Source: Roseovarius sp. (lineage in GTDB: Bacteria > Pseudomonadota > Alphaproteobacteria > Rhodobacterales > Rhodobacteraceae). Taken from it: a DNA stretch of 64,000 nucleotides. The notes beneath the pieces are model-generated. The model was not told the origin of the DNA. It saw nothing but the letters and a program-made list of their open reading frames with translations, and searched no databases. Location: the NCBI RefSeq assembly GCF_027019125.1, contig NZ_JALUXE010000027.1, positions 62,001-126,000 of the forward strand, given 5' to 3'. Of this stretch, positions 53,286 through 62,973 are shown in pieces; within the stretch, counting starts at the first letter, position 1; the number at the start of each line of letters is the position of its first letter. The translations under genes and the position numbers were made by a program.

Positions 53286-55226
<1,941 letters not shown>

Positions 55227-55231
55227 GGGGG

Positions 55232-55927
55232 ATGAGCGTGATGGACGGAAGCGACACGCCCCGCAACGCCGCAAATCTGGTCCTCCTGGGGCCGCCGGGT
55301 GCAGGCAAGGGCACACAGGCGCGCATGCTGGAGGAGCAATTCGGTCTGGTGCAACTCTCGACCGGGGACCTCTTGCGCGCCGCTGTGGCGGCGGGCACCG
55401 AGGCGGGTCGTGCGGCCAAGGCGGTTATGGAAGCGGGCGACCTGGTGTCCGACGAGATCGTCATCGCCATTCTGCGCGACCGACTGGCCGAGCCGGACTG
55501 TGCCAAGGGTGTGATACTGGACGGGTTCCCGCGCACCACGGTGCAGGCCGAGGCGCTCGACGGTCTCTTGGGCGAAATCGGGCAGGGTATCCGGGCGGCG
55601 ATCAGCCTGGAGGTGGATGACGCCGCGATGGTGACGCGGATTTCGGGCCGCTACACCTGCGGCGGCTGCGGTGAAGGCTATCACGACAGCTTCAAGGTGC
55701 CCGCCGTTGAGGGCACCTGTGACAAATGCGGCGGCACCGAGATGAAGCGGCGCGCCGATGACAATGCGGAGACGGTGGAACAGCGGCTGCGCGCCTATCA
55801 CGCGCAGACCGCGCCGCTGATTTCCTATTACGAATCGCGCGGCGTTCTGGCCCGCGTCGATGCGATGGCCGAGATCGAGGCCGTCGCAAGAGAGCTGAAC
55901 GCCATCGTCGCCAAGGCGGTCGCGTAA
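55232..55927 (+). CDS. adk: Adenylate kinase with four-cysteine zinc lid
   Basis: Converts AMP plus ATP into two ADP. 231 residues: P-loop LGPPGAGKGTQ (from Gly20), AMP site LSTGDLLRAAV, DGFPRTTVQAEAL, and a long LID with Cys143, Cys146, Cys163 and Cys166, a structural Zn site. Five bases after acs: placing an AMP-recycling enzyme next to an AMP-producing synthetase makes metabolic sense. The N-terminus is slightly extended (MSVMDGSDTPRNAAN); ATG at 55241 is an alternative. Confidence 0.95.
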   Translation: MSVMDGSDTPRNAANLVLLGPPGAGKGTQARMLEEQFGLVQLSTGDLLRAAVAAGTEAGRAAKAVMEAGDLVSDEIVIAILRDRLAEPDCAKGVILDGFPRTTVQAEALDGLLGEIGQGIRAAISLEVDDAAMVTRISGRYTCGGCGEGYHDSFKVPAVEGTCDKCGGTEMKRRADDNAETVEQRLRAYHAQTAPLISYYESRGVLARVDAMAEIEAVARELNAIVAKAVA

Positions 55928-55995
55928 AGGAGTGCCCGTGCCGGGATGGTCCCGGCGCGGTCTGGAGGACGTCGTTACAAAAGGGAGGGCACGCT

Positions 55996-56256
55996 TTGTC
56001 CGATAAAGAAAGAGCGAACGCTTATTGGAAGGCCAATCTGCGTCTCATCACATGGAGCCTGGTGATCTGGTTCTTCGCCTCGTTTGGCTTTGGCATTCTG
56101 CTGCGGCCGATGCTGTCGGGGATCGCCATTGGCGGCACCGACCTCGGGTTCTGGTTCGCGCAGCAAGGGTCGATCATCGTCTTTCTGATTTTGATCTTCT
56201 TCTACGCCTGGCGGATGAACAAGCTCGATGCCGAACATGGCGTCGGTGAAGAATAA
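55996..56256 (+). CDS. DUF4212 small subunit of a sodium/solute symporter
   Basis: 86 residues with two membrane helices (LITWSLVIWFFASFGFGILL and FWFAQQGSIIVFLILIFFYAWRMNKLDAEHG), preceded by the typical YWKANLRLI. This family is nearly always encoded directly before a VC_2705-type symporter, as here (15 bases). Thought to be an accessory membrane subunit for acetate or related uptake. Confidence 0.95.
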   Translation: MSDKERANAYWKANLRLITWSLVIWFFASFGFGILLRPMLSGIAIGGTDLGFWFAQQGSIIVFLILIFFYAWRMNKLDAEHGVGEE

Positions 56257-56271
56257 GTAGGGGGAGGGACA

Positions 56272-58035
56272 ATGGATCAAACAACACTCAATATCATCGT
56301 CGTGGGTCTCAGCTTTGCGCTCTATTTCGGGATCGCAATCTGGGCCAAGGCGGGATCGACGGCGGAATTCTACGCGGCTGGACGCGGCGTGAACCCGGTC
56401 GTCAACGGGATGGCCACGGCGGCGGACTGGATGTCGGCGGCTTCGTTCATCTCGATGGCAGGCCTTATCGCCTTTGTCGGCTACAACAACTCGACCTTCC
56501 TCATGGGCTGGACGGGCGGTTACGTGCTGATGGCCATGCTGCTTGCGCCCTATCTGCGCAAGTTCGGCAAGTTCACGGTGCCCGAGTTCGTGGGCGACCG
56601 TTTTTACAGCAACAAGGCCCGCGTCGTGGCTGTGATCGCGCTCATCACCATGTCGGTGACCTACGTGATCGGTCAGATGGCGGGTGCCGGTGTGGCCTTC
56701 TCGCGCTTCCTCGAAGTGGACAACACCACCGGCCTGCTGATCGCGTCTGGTGTGGTTTTCGTCTACGCCGTTCTGGGCGGGATGAAGGGCATCACCTATA
56801 CGCAGGTGGCACAGTATTGCGTTCTGATCATCGCCTACACCATTCCGGCGATCTTCATCTCGCTGCAACTGACGGGCAAGGTTCTGCCGCAGTTGGGTCT
56901 GTTCGCCGAGCATACCGCGTCGGGCCAGTATCTGCTTGTTACCCTGGACGGTCTGCTGAACGATCTGGGCTTTAACCAGTACACCACCGGGTCGAGCCCG
57001 TGGCTGATGGCGCTGTTCACCCTGTCGCTGATGATCGGCACCGCCGGTCTGCCGCACGTGATCATCCGCTTCTTCACCGTTCCCAAAGTGTCTGACGCAC
57101 GTTGGTCGGCAGGTTGGGCGCTGGTCTTTATTGCGCTGCTGTATCTCACCGCTCCGGCTGTGGGGGCAATGGCGCGCCTGAACATCATGACCACCATGTG
57201 GCCGAATGGCGTTCAGGGCGAAGCTGTGGCTGTGGACGATCTGCCGGACTGGTTCCGCACCTGGTCGACCACCGGTCTGCTGGCTGTGGAAGACAAGAAC
57301 GGCGACGGCAAGATCCAGTACTACAACGACAAGTCCGAAGCGATGACCGCACTTGCGGCCGAGCGTGGCTGGCAGGGCAACGAGCTTGTGACGTTCAACC
57401 GTGACATCCTCGTGCTGGCCAACCCCGAAATCGCCGGTCTGCCGGGTTGGGTGATCGCGCTTATCGCCGCAGGTGGTATCGCGGCGGCCCTTTCGACGGC
57501 GGCTGGTCTGCTCCTGGCCATTTCCTCGGCCGTGAGCCACGACCTGATCAAATCGACGATCAATCCCAACATCTCGGAAAAAGGCGAGCTTCTGGCCGCC
57601 CGTATCTCGATGGCGGTGGCGATCGTGGTGGCGACCTATCTGGGCCTCAACCCTCCGGGCTTTGCGGCGCAGGTGGTGGCACTGGCCTTTGGTCTGGCGG
57701 CAGCCTCGCTCTTCCCGACGCTGATGATGGGCATCTTCTCGAAGCGCATCAACTCGGCAGGGGCAACCGCGGGCATGCTGGCCGGTCTGCTCTCGACCAC
57801 GCTCTACCTGTTCCTCTACCTGGGCTGGTTCTTCATCCCGGAAACGAACATGCTGACCGCGGATCAGTACCTCTTCGGTATTCCGCCGACCCATTTCGGC
57901 CCGATTGGCGCAGTGCTGAACTTTGCTGTTGCCTATGTCGTGTCGAGCATGACGGCAGAACCGCCGCAGGAGATCCAGGACCTCGTCGAAAGCGTGCGTA
58001 TTCCGCGCGGTGCCGGTGCGGCCACGGGTCACTGA
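56272..58035 (+). CDS. Sodium:solute symporter (VC_2705 family, acetate-type)
   Basis: 587 residues, about 13 membrane helices, SSS family. Conserved: FYAAGRGVNPVVNGMATAADWMSAASFISMAGLIAF, VPEFVGDRFY, GGMKGITYTQVAQYCVLIIAYTIPAIF and AAALSTAAGLLLAISSAVSHDLIK. A soluble insertion (about 315-375) is typical of this subfamily. Location after acs, adk and DUF4212 suggests acetate or another short-chain monocarboxylate as substrate. Confidence 0.93.
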   Translation: MDQTTLNIIVVGLSFALYFGIAIWAKAGSTAEFYAAGRGVNPVVNGMATAADWMSAASFISMAGLIAFVGYNNSTFLMGWTGGYVLMAMLLAPYLRKFGKFTVPEFVGDRFYSNKARVVAVIALITMSVTYVIGQMAGAGVAFSRFLEVDNTTGLLIASGVVFVYAVLGGMKGITYTQVAQYCVLIIAYTIPAIFISLQLTGKVLPQLGLFAEHTASGQYLLVTLDGLLNDLGFNQYTTGSSPWLMALFTLSLMIGTAGLPHVIIRFFTVPKVSDARWSAGWALVFIALLYLTAPAVGAMARLNIMTTMWPNGVQGEAVAVDDLPDWFRTWSTTGLLAVEDKNGDGKIQYYNDKSEAMTALAAERGWQGNELVTFNRDILVLANPEIAGLPGWVIALIAAGGIAAALSTAAGLLLAISSAVSHDLIKSTINPNISEKGELLAARISMAVAIVVATYLGLNPPGFAAQVVALAFGLAAASLFPTLMMGIFSKRINSAGATAGMLAGLLSTTLYLFLYLGWFFIPETNMLTADQYLFGIPPTHFGPIGAVLNFAVAYVVSSMTAEPPQEIQDLVESVRIPRGAGAATGH

Positions 58036-58047
58036 GACCTCAAAGGA

Positions 58048-58077
58048 CAGGGGCGGCGTGTGCCGCCCCTGTTTCCC
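58048..58077 (+). terminator. Terminator after the symporter gene
   Basis: A perfect 10-bp G/C-rich stem (CAGGGGCGGC / GCCGCCCCTG, 4-base loop at 58058-58061) 12 bases after the symporter stop, followed by TTTCCC. The T-run is short; probably partial termination before the signalling genes. Confidence 0.65.
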
Positions 58078-58151
58078 TACCGCCCGCCGATATTCCGGTA
58101 ACCGGGTGCTTTTAGGTGATTTTCCCCCAAGTCCCAGGAGAGCCGCGCCCG

Positions 58152-59990
58152 ATGAGCGACGTCAAACCCGATCCCATTGACAGCCTGACCCGCCATGCGC
58201 CGTTTTCCGGTTTGCCGCATGCGTTGCGCAGTGCGCTGGCCCCCAAGCTGGCGCGGGTGAACTTGGCGCAGGGGGTGGTGCTGTTCGAGAAGGGCGCGCC
58301 GCTGGCCGGGCTTTACGTGGTCGAGACAGGCGGGCTCGATATCGAGACAGGTCATGCCGACCTGGTGTCGCACCGGGGGCCGGGCGACATCATGGGCGAG
58401 CGCGGTCTCTTGCGGGATGGTAACGCGCTCTTGACGGCGCGGGCGTCGGCGCCGTCCGAGTTGATCGTCGTGCCGCGCGAGGCGTTTCTCGACCTGATGG
58501 AGCAGTCGGACGAGATTGCGCGCTGGTTCGCGCGGGCGCGGCCGACGGCGCAGGGCGACGACGGCCCCTATGCCACGGGTCTGACCGCGCTTCAGGTGTC
58601 GGACCTCATGACCGCCACGCCGATCACCTGCGGGCCAGAGGCCACGGTCAAGGATGTGGCGCGGCTGATGCGGGATAACGTGATTTCCTCTGTCGTGGTG
58701 ATGGAGGGCGCGCGCCTGGCGGGGATCATCACGGTGCGCGATCTGGCCAACAAGGTGTTGGCCGAAGGGCTGAGCGGGGATGTCAGCGTGGCGCAGGTGA
58801 TGACGCCGGACCCGGTGACAATCGAGCCTGGGCGGCTGGGCCTTGATGCGCTGATGCTCTTGTCGGACCTCAAGGTCAATCACCTGCCGGTGGCGCAGGG
58901 GGGGCGGGTGCTGGGCATGATCGGCAAGACCGATCTCTTTCGCCAACAGGCCGCCACGGCGAGCCATATGGTGGCCGATATTGCCAGTGCCGAGGCGCCC
59001 GAGGACATGGCGCAGGTCATGGAGCGGGTGCCGATGCTGTTGGTGCAGCTGGTGCAGGCCGGGGTGCGGCCGCAGTCGATCACGCGGCGGATCACCGATA
59101 TTACCGATGCGATCACCCGACGTCTGTTGCGGCTGGCGGAGGTCAAGCTTGGCCCCGCCCCGGTGCCCTATCTCTGGGCGGCCTGCGGCAGCCAGGGGCG
59201 GCGCGAGCAGACGGGGGTGAGCGATCAGGACAATTGCCTGATCCTCGACGACAGTTTCCAGCCCGAGCATGACGCCTATTTCGCGGCGCTGGCCAAGTTT
59301 GTCAGCGACGGGCTGAACACCTGCGGGTTCTTTTATTGCCCTGGCGACATGATGGCGACCAATCCGCGCTGGCGACAGCCGCGCCGGGTGTGGCGCAGCT
59401 ATTTCGCGGGCTGGATCGCGCAGCCGGACACCGAGGCGCAGATGCTGGCGTCGGTCATGTTCGATCTGCGGGCGATTGCGGGGGAGACCGCGCTCTTTGA
59501 CGATTTGCAGGCCGAGGTGCTGGCAAGCGCGCGCAAGAATTCGATCTTTGTCGCGCATATGGTGTCCAATTCTCTCAAGCATACGGTGCCTTTGGGGCTG
59601 TTGCGCGGTTTTGCCCTGATCCGGTCGGGCGAGCACAAGAACACGATTGACCTCAAGCATTCGGGCGTGGTGCCGGTGGTTGATCTGGGGCGGATCTATG
59701 CGCTCTTGGGATCGCTCGAGGTGGCGGGCACGCGCGAGCGGATCACGAGCGCGCGGGCGGGCGCCGTCATTTCCGAGACTGGCGCACGGGATTTGCTGGA
59801 TGCCTATGACCTGATCGCGGAAACGCGCCTGCGGCATCAGGCGGCGCGTATCCGCGCCGGGCGCAGCCCGGACAATTTCATGGCCCCTGCCGATCTGTCG
59901 GACCTTGAGCGCAATCACCTGCGGGATGCGTTCATGGTGGTCAAGACCATGCAATCCGCCATCGGACAATCCAGAGGAGCACCGGGATAA
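58152..59990 (+). CDS. cNMP-binding/CBS/DUF294 putative nucleotidyltransferase
   Basis: 612 residues in three parts: a cyclic-nucleotide-binding-like domain (about 15-130, NLAQGVVLFEKGAPLAGLYVVETGGLDIE), a CBS pair (about 150-275, VSDLMTATPITCGPEATVKDVARLMRDNVISSVVVME; AQVMTPDPVTIEPGRLGLDALMLLSDLKVNHLPVAQGGRVLGMIGKTDL), then DUF294 nucleotidyltransferase with ACGSQGRREQTGVSDQDNCLIL and its C-terminal helical region. Relatives accompany acetate symporters and DnaQ-like exonucleases in gammaproteobacteria. Likely a regulator of uptake, linked to energy state through CBS; its target is unknown. Confidence 0.92.
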   Translation: MSDVKPDPIDSLTRHAPFSGLPHALRSALAPKLARVNLAQGVVLFEKGAPLAGLYVVETGGLDIETGHADLVSHRGPGDIMGERGLLRDGNALLTARASAPSELIVVPREAFLDLMEQSDEIARWFARARPTAQGDDGPYATGLTALQVSDLMTATPITCGPEATVKDVARLMRDNVISSVVVMEGARLAGIITVRDLANKVLAEGLSGDVSVAQVMTPDPVTIEPGRLGLDALMLLSDLKVNHLPVAQGGRVLGMIGKTDLFRQQAATASHMVADIASAEAPEDMAQVMERVPMLLVQLVQAGVRPQSITRRITDITDAITRRLLRLAEVKLGPAPVPYLWAACGSQGRREQTGVSDQDNCLILDDSFQPEHDAYFAALAKFVSDGLNTCGFFYCPGDMMATNPRWRQPRRVWRSYFAGWIAQPDTEAQMLASVMFDLRAIAGETALFDDLQAEVLASARKNSIFVAHMVSNSLKHTVPLGLLRGFALIRSGEHKNTIDLKHSGVVPVVDLGRIYALLGSLEVAGTRERITSARAGAVISETGARDLLDAYDLIAETRLRHQAARIRAGRSPDNFMAPADLSDLERNHLRDAFMVVKTMQSAIGQSRGAPG

Positions 59991-59993
59991 CTT

Positions 59994-60500
59994 ATGTTTT
60001 TGGAATTGATCGCCACTTTCGCTGTTGGCATCGGCGCAGCCGGTATCGCCCTGGTCCTTGGGCATCTCAGCCGGGGCCGTTTGCCGCGCTACACCGCGCC
60101 CTTCGCGGCGGGGATCGCGATGCTGTGCTATGTGGTCTGGTCGGAATACACCTGGGCGGATCGCACGCTCGGCACCCTGCCCGACAGTGTTGAGGTGATC
60201 AGCGCGGTGGAAGAAAGCAAGCCGTGGAGGCCCTGGACCTATGTCGTGCCGCAGGTCACGCGGATGATGGTGCTGGACCGCGCCGGGGTGCAGACCAATC
60301 CGGCAGCCCCCGAGATCCTGTTGGCGGATATTTATCTCTTTGGGCGGTGGGCCGCGCCGATGATGCGCCCGCAACTGGTGGATTGCGCCAAGGCGGCGCG
60401 CGCCGATGTGAGCGAGGCGGCGCTGGCCGATCCGGCACAGGCCGAGTGGCTGGCCGTGGGGTTGGAGGACCCGGTGATCGCGGCGCTCTGCCAAAGCTAA
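59994..60500 (+). CDS. Small membrane protein of unknown function
   Basis: 168 residues with two N-terminal membrane helices (LELIATFAVGIGAAGIALVLGHLS and YTAPFAAGIAMLCYVVWSEYTW) and a periplasmic or cytosolic C-terminal region (WTYVVPQVTRMMVLDRAGVQTNPAAPEILLADIYLFGRWAAPMMRPQLVDCAK). Seen as a conserved companion of the DUF294 and exonuclease genes; otherwise unrecognised. Three bases after the DUF294 gene. Confidence 0.82.
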   Translation: MFLELIATFAVGIGAAGIALVLGHLSRGRLPRYTAPFAAGIAMLCYVVWSEYTWADRTLGTLPDSVEVISAVEESKPWRPWTYVVPQVTRMMVLDRAGVQTNPAAPEILLADIYLFGRWAAPMMRPQLVDCAKAARADVSEAALADPAQAEWLAVGLEDPVIAALCQS

Positions 60501-60530
60501 GTCAGTGGTAACCGGGAGAGGAGGCCCGTC

Positions 60531-60914
60531 ATGCCTGAAAAAACCGTTCTGCTGGTTGAAGACGAGGACAATATCGCGCTCGCGCTCGAACATCTGATCG
60601 GGCGCGCGGGATACCGGCTGCGCCGGGTGGCCACGGGCAATGCCGCGCTGGAGGCGATGGCCGAGGATCGGCCTGATCTGGTGGTGCTGGATGTGATGCT
60701 GCCCGAGCGGTCGGGCTATGAGATTTGCCAGATGATCCGCGCCGATGCCACCCTCAAGGGGACCAAGGTGCTGATGATGACCGCAGGGGGGGGCGAGGTC
60801 GAGCGCCGCAAGGGGCTGGCGGTGGGGGCGGATGCCTTTATGACCAAGCCTTTCGCCACCGCTGATCTGACCGCGCAGATCGGGGCGTTGCTGGCCGGGG
60901 CGGATCATGATTGA
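60531..60914 (+). CDS. CheY-like response regulator without output domain
   Basis: 127 residues, a receiver domain only: acidic pocket in LLVEDEDN, phosphoacceptor Asp54 (VVLDVMLPERSGYE), Thr84 (MMTAGG) and Lys106 (FMTKPFA). All residues for phosphorylation are present. The next gene overlaps it by 8 bases and encodes a degenerate histidine kinase fused to an exonuclease, so the true kinase must be elsewhere. Confidence 0.94.
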   Translation: MPEKTVLLVEDEDNIALALEHLIGRAGYRLRRVATGNAALEAMAEDRPDLVVLDVMLPERSGYEICQMIRADATLKGTKVLMMTAGGGEVERRKGLAVGADAFMTKPFATADLTAQIGALLAGADHD

Positions 60915-62973
60915 GCGCCTGACGGCGCGTTTGGGTCTACGGCTGCGATTTGCGCTCTTCTTTGCCGCGCTTGCGCTGGGGGGCGCCGTGGTTATCGCGG
61001 GCGCGCTGTGGTTTGGTTACACGCGGGCGGGCGGGCCGCTGGATGGGTATGTGATCGGTGGCATGGTTGCGGCGCTGGGCGTGATGGGCTTGGCCGCCTG
61101 GATCGGGCTGCTGTTCGATGAGAACGTGGCCAAGCCCATTCTGGCGCTGGCCTCGGACCTGACGACGCGGGCGCGGGCCGATGTGGACTTGCAGATCGAC
61201 GAGGCGCAGGCCAAGCATCTGAGCACGCTGGCGCCCGCCGCCAATGCGATCAACGCGGCGCTGTCGGAGGCGCGGGCCGCACGGGCGCGGGCGGTCGAGC
61301 GGGAGACCGCACGGATTGCGCGCGAGAAGGCGCTCTTTGAGGCGCTCTTTCGCGATCTGGGCGAAGGGGCGGTGGTGGCCACGCCGGACAACCGCGTCAT
61401 GCTCTATAATCGCATGGCGCAAGAGCTGTTGGGCGAGATTGGTCTTGATCGTCCGCTGTCGAATGTCCTGCGCCCCGAGCCGATCATGGACGCGCTGTCG
61501 CGGATGCAGGAGGCGCGGGTACGCGGCCATATCGGGGCCGAGACATTCCTTGCGGCCTCTGCGAATGGCAAGCGGTTCCTCTTGGGGCGCGTCAGCCCGA
61601 TCCTGTCGGATGAGGAATTGTCGGGGCATGTGTTGATTTTCCGGGACGCGACCGAGGATCTGAGCGCGCATGCGCAGCAGGATCATCTGTTCAACACGCT
61701 CTTGGAGGGGGTGCGCCGACCGGCGGCCACCATTGGCGCGCTGCTGGATGTGTTGCAATCGGCGGATGATCTGCCGCCCGAGACCCGCGCAACGTTTCGC
61801 AAGGGGATCGAGGACGAGGTGGCGCGGCTCTTTGAGTGCCTGCGCGAGATGGGCGCGCAGCATGCCGGGGTCAAATCGCGGCGCTGGCCGATGTCGCCGG
61901 TTGCGGCGGCGCATGTGTTCGACGGGTTGAGCGTGCAGGCGCGGGTGCCGCTGAGCGTGGCGCGCAGCGAGGCGATGTTGAGTTGCGACGGTTTTGCCGT
62001 GACCACGCTCTTGGGCGGGTTGCTTGGGCATCTGGCCGAGGACGGCAGCCGCGACGGATTCAGCCTGAGCGCCGAGCAGGACGGGGCCGAAACGCGGCTG
62101 ATCCTGAGTTGGCAGGGGGAGGCGGTGACGGATGGGCAATTGACCGGCTGGCTCAAGGCGCCGCTGTCCACCGCCTATGGGGACTATTCCGGGCGCGATG
62201 CGCTGAGCGCGCATCAGACGGATGTCTGGGCCGAGGCAAGGGCCGGGGGGCACCGGATCGTGCTGCCGCTTGCCACCGCAGCCCCACCGCTACAGCCCGG
62301 CGATGCGCGGCCCGAGTTCTATGATTTCAACCTGCCAGAGGTGGCGGGCGGAGATCTGGCCGAACGTCCCCTGTCGGACCTGAGTTTCGTGGTGTTCGAC
62401 ACCGAAACCACCGGCCTCTCGCCGCGGGGGGGCGACGAGATCGTGCAGATTGCCGGGTTGCGGATCGTCAACGGGCGCATTCTGCGCGGCGAGAGCTTTG
62501 ACATGCTGGTCAATCCGGGCCGCCCGATTCCGCCTGCCTCGACGCGGGTGCATCATATCAGCGACGAGATGGTGCAGGGTGCTCCGGATATTGTCGAGGC
62601 TGGGCGGCGGTTTCACGATTTCTGTCAGGGCGCGGTGCTGGTGGCGCATAACGCGCCCTTCGATCTGGCGTTTTTGCGGCTCAAGGAAAAGGTCATCGGG
62701 CGGCGGTTCGACAATCCGGTGCTTTGCACCGTGTTGATGTCGGCGGGGCTCTTTGATCACAGCGGTCAGCATACGCTGGATGCGCTCTGCGAGCGGTTCG
62801 GGATCACCATCCCGCCCGAGGCGCGGCATACCGCGATGGGCGATACCGTGGCCACGGCCGAGGTATTCGTGCGGATGCTGGGCCTCTTGCAGGCCAAGGG
62901 TGTGACGACGCTCGGGGGGGCGATTGCCGAAGAGGGGCGCATGACCAAGATCCGCAAGGCGCAGAATTACTAA
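60907..62973 (+). CDS. Membrane pseudo-histidine-kinase fused to DnaQ-like 3'-5' exonuclease
   Basis: 688 residues. Two N-terminal membrane helices (about 14-38 and 46-69), a HAMP-like and coiled-coil stretch (70-140), a PAS-like domain (about 145-255), a DHp-like helix (LEGVRRPAATIGALLDVL, with Glu267 where the phospho-His should be) and a kinase-like region lacking the N-box Asn (FAVTTLLGGLLGHL). The C-terminal third is a complete DEDDh exonuclease: FDTETTGL (Asp498), VAHNAPFD (Asp586), and HTAMGD (His641, Asp646). So kinase activity is probably lost while nuclease activity is probably kept. It overlaps the response regulator gene by 8 bases. Confidence 0.9.
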   Translation: MIERLTARLGLRLRFALFFAALALGGAVVIAGALWFGYTRAGGPLDGYVIGGMVAALGVMGLAAWIGLLFDENVAKPILALASDLTTRARADVDLQIDEAQAKHLSTLAPAANAINAALSEARAARARAVERETARIAREKALFEALFRDLGEGAVVATPDNRVMLYNRMAQELLGEIGLDRPLSNVLRPEPIMDALSRMQEARVRGHIGAETFLAASANGKRFLLGRVSPILSDEELSGHVLIFRDATEDLSAHAQQDHLFNTLLEGVRRPAATIGALLDVLQSADDLPPETRATFRKGIEDEVARLFECLREMGAQHAGVKSRRWPMSPVAAAHVFDGLSVQARVPLSVARSEAMLSCDGFAVTTLLGGLLGHLAEDGSRDGFSLSAEQDGAETRLILSWQGEAVTDGQLTGWLKAPLSTAYGDYSGRDALSAHQTDVWAEARAGGHRIVLPLATAAPPLQPGDARPEFYDFNLPEVAGGDLAERPLSDLSFVVFDTETTGLSPRGGDEIVQIAGLRIVNGRILRGESFDMLVNPGRPIPPASTRVHHISDEMVQGAPDIVEAGRRFHDFCQGAVLVAHNAPFDLAFLRLKEKVIGRRFDNPVLCTVLMSAGLFDHSGQHTLDALCERFGITIPPEARHTAMGDTVATAEVFVRMLGLLQAKGVTTLGGAIAEEGRMTKIRKAQNY

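Follow-up and report, generated by a model that had tools for sequence, protein, structure and literature searches.

Can a histidine-kinase core that no longer carries its phospho-accepting histidine govern an enzyme joined to it, and what would then tell it what to do? This question is raised by one gene of Roseovarius sp. (NCBI RefSeq assembly GCF_027019125.1, contig NZ_JALUXE010000027.1), located in a stretch of 64,000 nucleotides (positions 62,001 to 126,000 of the contig) that was analysed as a whole and is called the window below. A sequence-only reading of the window had described the product as a membrane pseudo-histidine kinase fused to an intact DnaQ-like exonuclease. The open reading frame is real at its full length of 688 residues (positions 60907-62973, + strand), and the domain reading proved right, a membrane pseudo-histidine kinase being joined to a DEDDh nuclease with all its catalytic residues. 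The usual outputs of two-component systems are DNA binding, cyclic-nucleotide enzymes and protein binding. The reading that we prefer, at about one chance in two, is that of a nuclease anchored in the membrane, with its activity or its localisation controlled through the dead histidine-kinase core, as addressed by the receiver protein encoded just upstream.

Kinase homology and catalytic residues of the fusion protein

To the middle of the protein the sequence-only reading had assigned a DHp-like helix and a degenerate ATPase region (CA domain). A query profile of both parts (residues 245-462) was built from 54 relatives and compared by hhalign with 17 kinases of the same genome, which were retained from 26 HisKA matches after the removal of nine having no frame that fitted the H-box pattern with 180 residues after it. 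The profile aligned with these kinases at E 2.2e-12 across 212 columns, and each part did so by itself (DHp 1.6e-6, CA 1.7e-7); near relatives alone gave 7e-7 and distant relatives alone 3.9e-15. The controls all lay between 0.07 and 0.88, with 0.14 for the reversed DHp and CA profile and 0.73-0.88 for its five column shuffles. By simple patterns the H-box was recognised in 17 of the 17 comparison kinases and the N-box and the G1 box in 15 each. The window protein has no Pfam match to HisKA or HATPase_c, even with E allowed up to 1; HisKA is matched in 7 of 25 distant relatives (best E 1.1e-4) and in 0 of 29 near ones, and HATPase_c has no match at E <= 0.01 among the same 29 near or 25 distant relatives. 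A Foldseek search of the predicted model against the PDB returned 938 matches; the top of the best 50 is made of sensor kinases, with the WalK integrative model 9a5d (E 4.5e-17) and 4i5s (4.7e-14), then LOV-kinases, and these 50 also include the receiver-bound kinases ThkA-TrrA and HK853-RR468 and, at rank 50, DivL (4q20, 1.5e-7). On these comparisons, the middle region is homologous to the DHp and CA core of histidine kinases.

The chemistry of this core appears to be gone. In the alignment with the 17 kinases Glu267 sits on the phospho-His, as had been proposed, and the ATPase region is indeed degenerate: the N-box Asn is replaced by His375, the G1 Asp by Trp402 and the second Gly of that box by Ala406, and the G2 box is not recognisable. 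At position 267 we found Glu 43, Asp 35, Ala 3, Gly 2, Arg 1 and Leu 1 times in 85 non-identical near relatives, and Glu 25 times, Asp twice and Ser, Thr, Gln, Met and Ala once each in 32 distant long forms, the latter obtained from 58 loci minus five near-family or repeat loci and those without a kinase part. An acidic residue thus occupies the position in 78/85 near and 27/32 distant relatives and His in none, and no functional kinase was found among the 32 distant ones. The alignments hold no intact His and N-box at other positions, the finding that the sequence-only reading had named as contrary to its view. Two further residues of the same box are widely kept, Arg270 in 75/85 near and 31/32 distant relatives and Pro272 in 63/85 and 28/32. 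The alignments therefore indicate that the kinase half has lost the residues needed for kinase chemistry.

The nuclease half presents the opposite picture in the sense that nothing of its active site is missing. Its RNase_T match reaches E 2.8e-36 in Pfam, and the set Asp498, Glu500, Asp586, His641 and Asp646 is complete, as had been reported, and invariant in 102/102 near and 32/32 distant members; judged by this conservation, the nuclease domain is under constraint and its catalytic residues are intact.

At the N-terminal end, the two membrane helices predicted earlier coincide with hydropathy maxima at residues 11-39 and 45-72. The sensing part that had been called HAMP/PAS-like is PAS-like weakly in Pfam, with sub-threshold matches of the window protein (PAS_9 E 0.02, PAS_4 E 0.03) and a match above the cut-off in one distant member (L129). 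Pfam HAMP gave no match at E <= 0.01 among the 29 near and 25 distant members scanned, and the label HAMP-like is a fair one because a kinase of 790 residues, which we take to be NtrY from its HAMP-PAS-DHp-CA architecture, has a HAMP-PAS part that aligns with residues about 40-260 of the fusion protein (hhalign E 4e-13). The collinear PAS-DHp-CA alignment of the two proteins has an E of 3.8e-9, the HAMP-PAS part carrying the signal. Unlike the fusion protein, this kinase keeps its His and ATP boxes, and its frame shows no sign of a nuclease part.

Co-occurrence of the receiver and the pseudo-DHp

The sequence-only reading had noted a receiver-only gene overlapping the fusion gene, and the overlap amounts to 8 bases (60907-60914). 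The adjoining position stands, but the receiver is more than mere context, the comparative evidence making it the most informative partner. Among the receivers of the relatives, D54 and K106 are present in 103/103, T/S84 in 102/103 and D11 in 100/103, and 101 of the 103 have fewer than 30 residues beyond the domain; by these residues, the receiver is phosphorylatable.

We scored 150 distinct loci, drawn from 204 with a frame of at least 430 residues, for a receiver, which we defined as a match of more than 30 bits on the same strand within a span that opens 1.7 kb ahead of the start of the open frame and closes 0.7 kb past it. Where the DHp is present a receiver was found in 102/106 loci, where it is degenerate in 1/13, and where the kinase part is lacking in 0/31, a set that includes a divergent clade of 11. 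Degenerate and absent taken together, the receiver is found in 1/44 loci, flanking sequence being kept on both sides. One of the 13 degenerate loci, L139, is without any DHp and may be a form with no kinase part. In a separate sample, no receiver was found beside 22 stand-alone exonucleases that adjoin a DUF294 gene (0/22; stretches of 3.0-3.4 kb scanned). Outside the 150-locus count, a Ciceribacter locus has no receiver and an altered box (FERVGPT), and a Cupriavidus locus has a receiver and a Q..RAT box. These counts show, at the level of the genomes compared, that the receiver co-occurs with the pseudo-DHp.

Some relatives dispense with the kinase half. A short form of 468-542 residues (17 sequences), found even inside the genus, keeps the membrane, PAS-like and exonuclease parts and lacks DHp and CA. 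The receiver is missing from a clade of eight long forms (L098, L215, L092, L089, L100, L178, L088 and L216), which retain the CA-like stretch and have a shortened DHp hairpin; this clade may stand midway between the long and the short forms. One contiguous deletion as the cause of the joint absence of receiver and DHp-CA was considered and rejected, because the short forms retain both the N-terminal part and the 168-residue gene that lies upstream of the receiver in the window, the latter in 13/13 Rhodobacteraceae short-form loci read. This physical argument is stronger than the correlation drawn from the tree, discussed below.

These data bear directly on the best-surviving alternative, which we hold to be rather unlikely and in which the dead core would be a dimerisation and PAS-signal scaffold placing the nuclease at the membrane, the receiver serving an ordinary kinase elsewhere and being an operon-mate only. 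The short forms, 16 of which form a well-supported clade, speak for it, as they show DHp-CA to be dispensable. With a scaffold, however, one would not expect receiver and DHp to come and go together (102/106 versus 1/44), nor the E/D-x-x-R-x-P box to be conserved.

Gene neighbourhood and metabolic setting

The genes of the window follow the order acs, adk, DUF4212 gene, symporter gene, CBS/DUF294 gene, 168-residue protein gene, receiver gene and fusion gene (Table 1). The acs and acetate-type symporter genes reported earlier are both there, but the symporter belongs to the VC_2705 family, and the assignment to ActP proper was rejected (TIGR02711 134.6 bits versus 1099.25). The earlier description of the neighbourhood was also incomplete, four further genes (those for adk, DUF4212, CBS/DUF294 and the 168-residue protein) standing between acs and the receiver. 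On plasmid 1 of Paracoccus denitrificans PD1222 the order is kept without adk, and a hypothetical protein that matches the same profile occupies the place of the 168-residue gene. Of the DHp-positive loci, 51 have 2.5 kb or more of upstream sequence; within the stretch scanned, DUF294 was matched in 46 of these, the symporter in 43 and acs in 34.

Table 1. Features of the fusion gene and its neighbours (positions in the window)
Feature	Position	Strand	Evidence and remarks
acs, acetate--CoA ligase	53352..55226	+	TIGR02188 1023.7 bits; start chosen by eye inside longer frame
adk	55232-55927		follows acs
DUF4212 small membrane protein (symporter companion)	55996..56256	+	PF13937 E 1.7e-33
sodium/solute symporter, VC_2705 family	56272..58035	+	TIGR03648 805.6 bits, cut-off 320.75
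cNMP-binding/CBS/DUF294 nucleotidyltransferase-like protein	58116..59990	+	GSxxR..DxD motif; true start uncertain
168-residue protein, one N-terminal hydrophobic segment	59994..60500	+	no Pfam family; beside long and short forms alike in Rhodobacteraceae loci
stand-alone phospho-competent receiver, 127 residues	60531..60914	+	Response_reg E 6e-25
pseudo-histidine kinase/DEDDh exonuclease fusion, 688 residues	60907..62973	+	exact open reading frame; relatives in further families, and also in other classes, of the phylum
two transmembrane helices, about residues 16-36 and 48-70	60952..61116	+	hydropathy peaks; helices in predicted model
HAMP-like linker and PAS-like domain, about residues 71-250	61117..61656	+	hhalign to NtrY HAMP-PAS; weak Pfam PAS
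pseudo-DHp hairpin, residues 249-323	61651..61875	+	hhalign and Foldseek kinase matches; Glu267 codon 61705-61707 at phospho-His position
pseudo-ATPase (CA) domain, residues 330-457, N/G1/G2 boxes lost	61894..62277	+	hhalign; model confidence
DEDDh 3'-5' exonuclease domain, residues 490-665	62374..62901	+	RNase_T match; catalytic residues
zinc-ribbon-like protein, 102 residues	63037-63345	+	Zn_Ribbon_TF E 7.5e-6, below cut-off; 63 bases past the fusion gene

In the Rhodobacteraceae loci read, the 168-residue gene sits upstream of the receiver gene or of the exonuclease gene. Two long antisense open frames are found on the - strand, one of 685 residues (55975-58032) opposite the symporter and one of 943 residues (58077-60908) opposite the genes from DUF294 to the receiver; both are presumably by-products of high-GC codon usage and not genes.

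The acetate link drawn from this neighbourhood is supported by the conserved gene order and by a published pair of Pseudomonas putida genes, though the phenotype there is on pyruvate and not on acetate. According to the part of the report available, pp_0353 (RNase_T) lies in an operon with the CBS gene pp_0354, the promoter of which is bound by ErdR, and the CBS gene is a target of the acetate two-component system MxtR/ErdR; neither mutant is acetate-defective, pp_0353 is important on pyruvate by a mechanism described as unclear, and homologs adjoin actP in some Pseudomonas (PMC9927547). The likeness to our locus, an RNase_T exonuclease beside a CBS-domain gene, is one of description, and unlike the fusion protein PP_0353 is stand-alone, that part of the report mentioning no membrane, PAS or pseudokinase part (PMC9927547). 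In P. aeruginosa, the available part of another study gives an increase of about 16-fold on propionate for PA3232-PA3235 (PMC9765439). Acetate kinase is encoded in the Roseovarius genome, which makes acetyl phosphate a possible phospho-donor of the receiver, a role that we put forward as a conjecture.

The pairing with DUF294 is the basis of a second alternative, in which the DUF294 protein would attach a nucleotide to the 3' end of an RNA or to a protein and the DEDDh nuclease would take it off, receiver and PAS setting the balance. A stand-alone exonuclease-profile match adjoins DUF294 on the same strand in 22/30 loci (the best-scoring ones of a 120-genome draw, the exonucleases being known there by profile match alone), and the DUF294 protein of the window keeps the nucleotidyltransferase motif (GSQGRREQTGVSDQD, residue 358). 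The activity of both partners is putative, however, the motif pattern occurs in 145 of 193 DUF294 frames scanned, partial frames included, and of the 17 distant long-form loci that have 2.5 kb or more of upstream sequence, 5 gave no DUF294 match in the stretch scanned (L186, L188, L190, L192 and L204). We consider this pair unlikely as the explanation of the locus. Least probable is a pseudokinase tail on a housekeeping DnaQ-type exonuclease of DNA proofreading or repair, without a link to carbon metabolism, for which one may cite the DnaQ/PolC sequence type (TIGR00573 103.5 bits over a cut-off of 71.5) and the best PDB sequence match of the fusion protein, the PolC exonuclease 2p1j, and against which stand the dnaQ_proteo equivalog TIGR01406, not reached (115.4 versus 222.7 bits), a separate exonuclease match in the same genome (G000:C34:343141-343701, E 3.3e-24), the conserved order with acs, symporter and DUF294, and the regulon and pyruvate link of the comparable pair in the available part of that report (PMC9927547). 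Identity with the replicative epsilon subunit was rejected on the first two of these grounds: the protein shares with DnaQ/PolC-type DEDDh exonucleases the RNase_T family and all five catalytic residues, but it is joined to a membrane pseudokinase and is not the epsilon equivalog.

Distribution and annotation

Aligned relatives of 57-99% identity, full or near-full in length, were found at 21 other named loci mostly labelled Roseovarius, the closest (99%) being that of Roseovarius mucosus DSM 17069 (L001). A match at E <= 1e-40 is present in 136 of the family's 295 genomes; for the profile at E <= 1e-45 the figures are 29 of 240 genomes in the class and 46 of 299 in the phylum, all these counts taking in exonuclease-only and short forms. 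The fusion design extends well past Roseovarius, with examples on plasmid 1 of Paracoccus denitrificans and on pBB1 of Cupriavidus necator, and Ciceribacter and Cupriavidus plasmids are the named distant carriers. In the 20 plasmid rows listed, the gene is labelled "3'-5' exonuclease", "exonuclease domain-containing protein", "DNA polymerase III subunit epsilon" or "hypothetical protein", or bears no label; the kinase half has been overlooked because these annotations name the exonuclease, a hypothetical protein or nothing. A search of the open-licence literature, subscription papers being outside its scope, found no description of a histidine kinase-exonuclease fusion or of a DUF294-exonuclease pair.

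Proposed mechanism and its standing

The closest precedent is the DivL/DivK pair of Caulobacter. In the part of the source available, DivL is described as devoid of kinase and phosphatase activity and as binding DivK~P at the docking face that its DHp offers, and the DHp-CA of DivL is frequently missing where a lineage has no DivK (PMC4211667). Both systems thus combine a phospho-His replaced group-wide, a PAS input, a stand-alone phospho-competent receiver as partner and the joint absence of receiver and DHp-CA in some lineages. They differ in that, as far as the same source goes, DivL has Tyr at the position and keeps the N, G1, F and G2 boxes (PMC4211667), whereas the fusion protein has Glu or Asp and broken boxes. 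It also differs in carrying a nuclease as its output, and we do not claim it as a DivL ortholog. For DivL, the target is another kinase, CckA.

A sensor controlling a nuclease at the membrane, as suggested from the sequence-only reading, seems to us the best reading, and we infer a pseudokinase of the DivL kind that reads a receiver, has a nuclease as its output and builds on the DUF294-exonuclease pair. The fusion protein would dimerise via its DHp, and the receiver would dock on the pseudo-DHp around Glu267/Arg270, a step suggested by the match of the pattern to DivL/DivK and presumed to depend on phosphorylation of Asp54 by a kinase or a small phosphodonor. Docking, together with the PAS state, would shift the CA domain and the linker (about residues 460-490), and this shift would turn the DEDDh exonuclease on or off. 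Information would thus flow from the receiver to the pseudokinase, as from DivK to DivL, with the fused nuclease as output. Trimming by the nuclease may adjust acetate/pyruvate uptake or metabolism, jointly with the DUF294 protein. Both the docking of the receiver and the gating of the exonuclease are proposed here by analogy.

Several observations weigh against this reading. What the nuclease acts on is guesswork, RNA 3' ends or short oligonucleotides being the most likely choice, and the phenotype in P. putida is on pyruvate only, in the available part of that report (PMC9927547). The AlphaFold model is weak overall (mean predicted local distance difference test score, pLDDT, 62; predicted template modelling score 0.31): by ten-residue blocks, pLDDT is 73-81 over PAS and 68-92 over residues 331-460 of CA, only fair over DHp (54-82) and poor over the exonuclease; a separate fold of residues 248-465, made with no alignment, was poor (pLDDT 49) and was not used. 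The whole-chain superpositions in Foldseek are poor as well (query template modelling score 0.16-0.22, root-mean-square deviation 9-25), as expected because the model is multidomain. Against the single NtrY sequence DHp, DHp with CA, and CA were not significant (E 0.18, 0.05 and 0.03), only the profile of 17 kinases, unlike this sequence, having resolved the DHp and CA homology. The co-occurrence has its exceptions too. The one receiver-bearing "degenerate" locus, L097, is borderline with a box partly intact; L099, also degenerate, has a receiver-like match of 26 bits, below the cut-off; L123, without a kinase part, has a receiver 3.4 kb downstream; and the upstream sequence is short in loci of this last kind, below 350 bases in four and 549-801 in seven more. 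Four DHp-positive loci lack the upstream receiver, L187 with an intact box and L096, L204 and L103 with an altered Arg/Pro box. The broken box as the reason for these exceptions is weakened as an explanation, because an altered Arg270 or Pro272 is seen in 14 of the 102 forms that do have the receiver, and the state of the box alone predicts little. Nor are the relatives independent of one another. In the exonuclease tree (138 rows) the DHp state changes 10 times and the receiver state 13 times, and the independent pairs that can be drawn number 10 on all branches and 2 on well-supported branches, agreeing in 1.6 on average. With only two such well-supported pairs, statistical significance is out of reach for the correlation, and on this tree gains of receiver and DHp cannot be distinguished from losses.

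Significance

If the proposed reading is right, two-component signalling would have an unusual output here, a dead kinase core relaying the state of a receiver to an exonuclease covalently joined to it. Somewhat more tentatively, and less probably than not, the locus may represent a receptor class spread across the Pseudomonadota in which a phospho-receiver, read by a fused pseudo-histidine kinase, switches a membrane-tethered 3'-5' exonuclease, with the DUF294 nucleotidyltransferase opposing it, for a post-transcriptional control of acetate and pyruvate. The proposed reading would also offer a handle on the CBS/DUF294 and exonuclease pair of acetate regulons and on the P. putida pyruvate phenotype given in the available part of that report (PMC9927547). 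The "reverse" logic of DivL/DivK would then extend to metabolism, with a nutrient signal wired to a nuclease.

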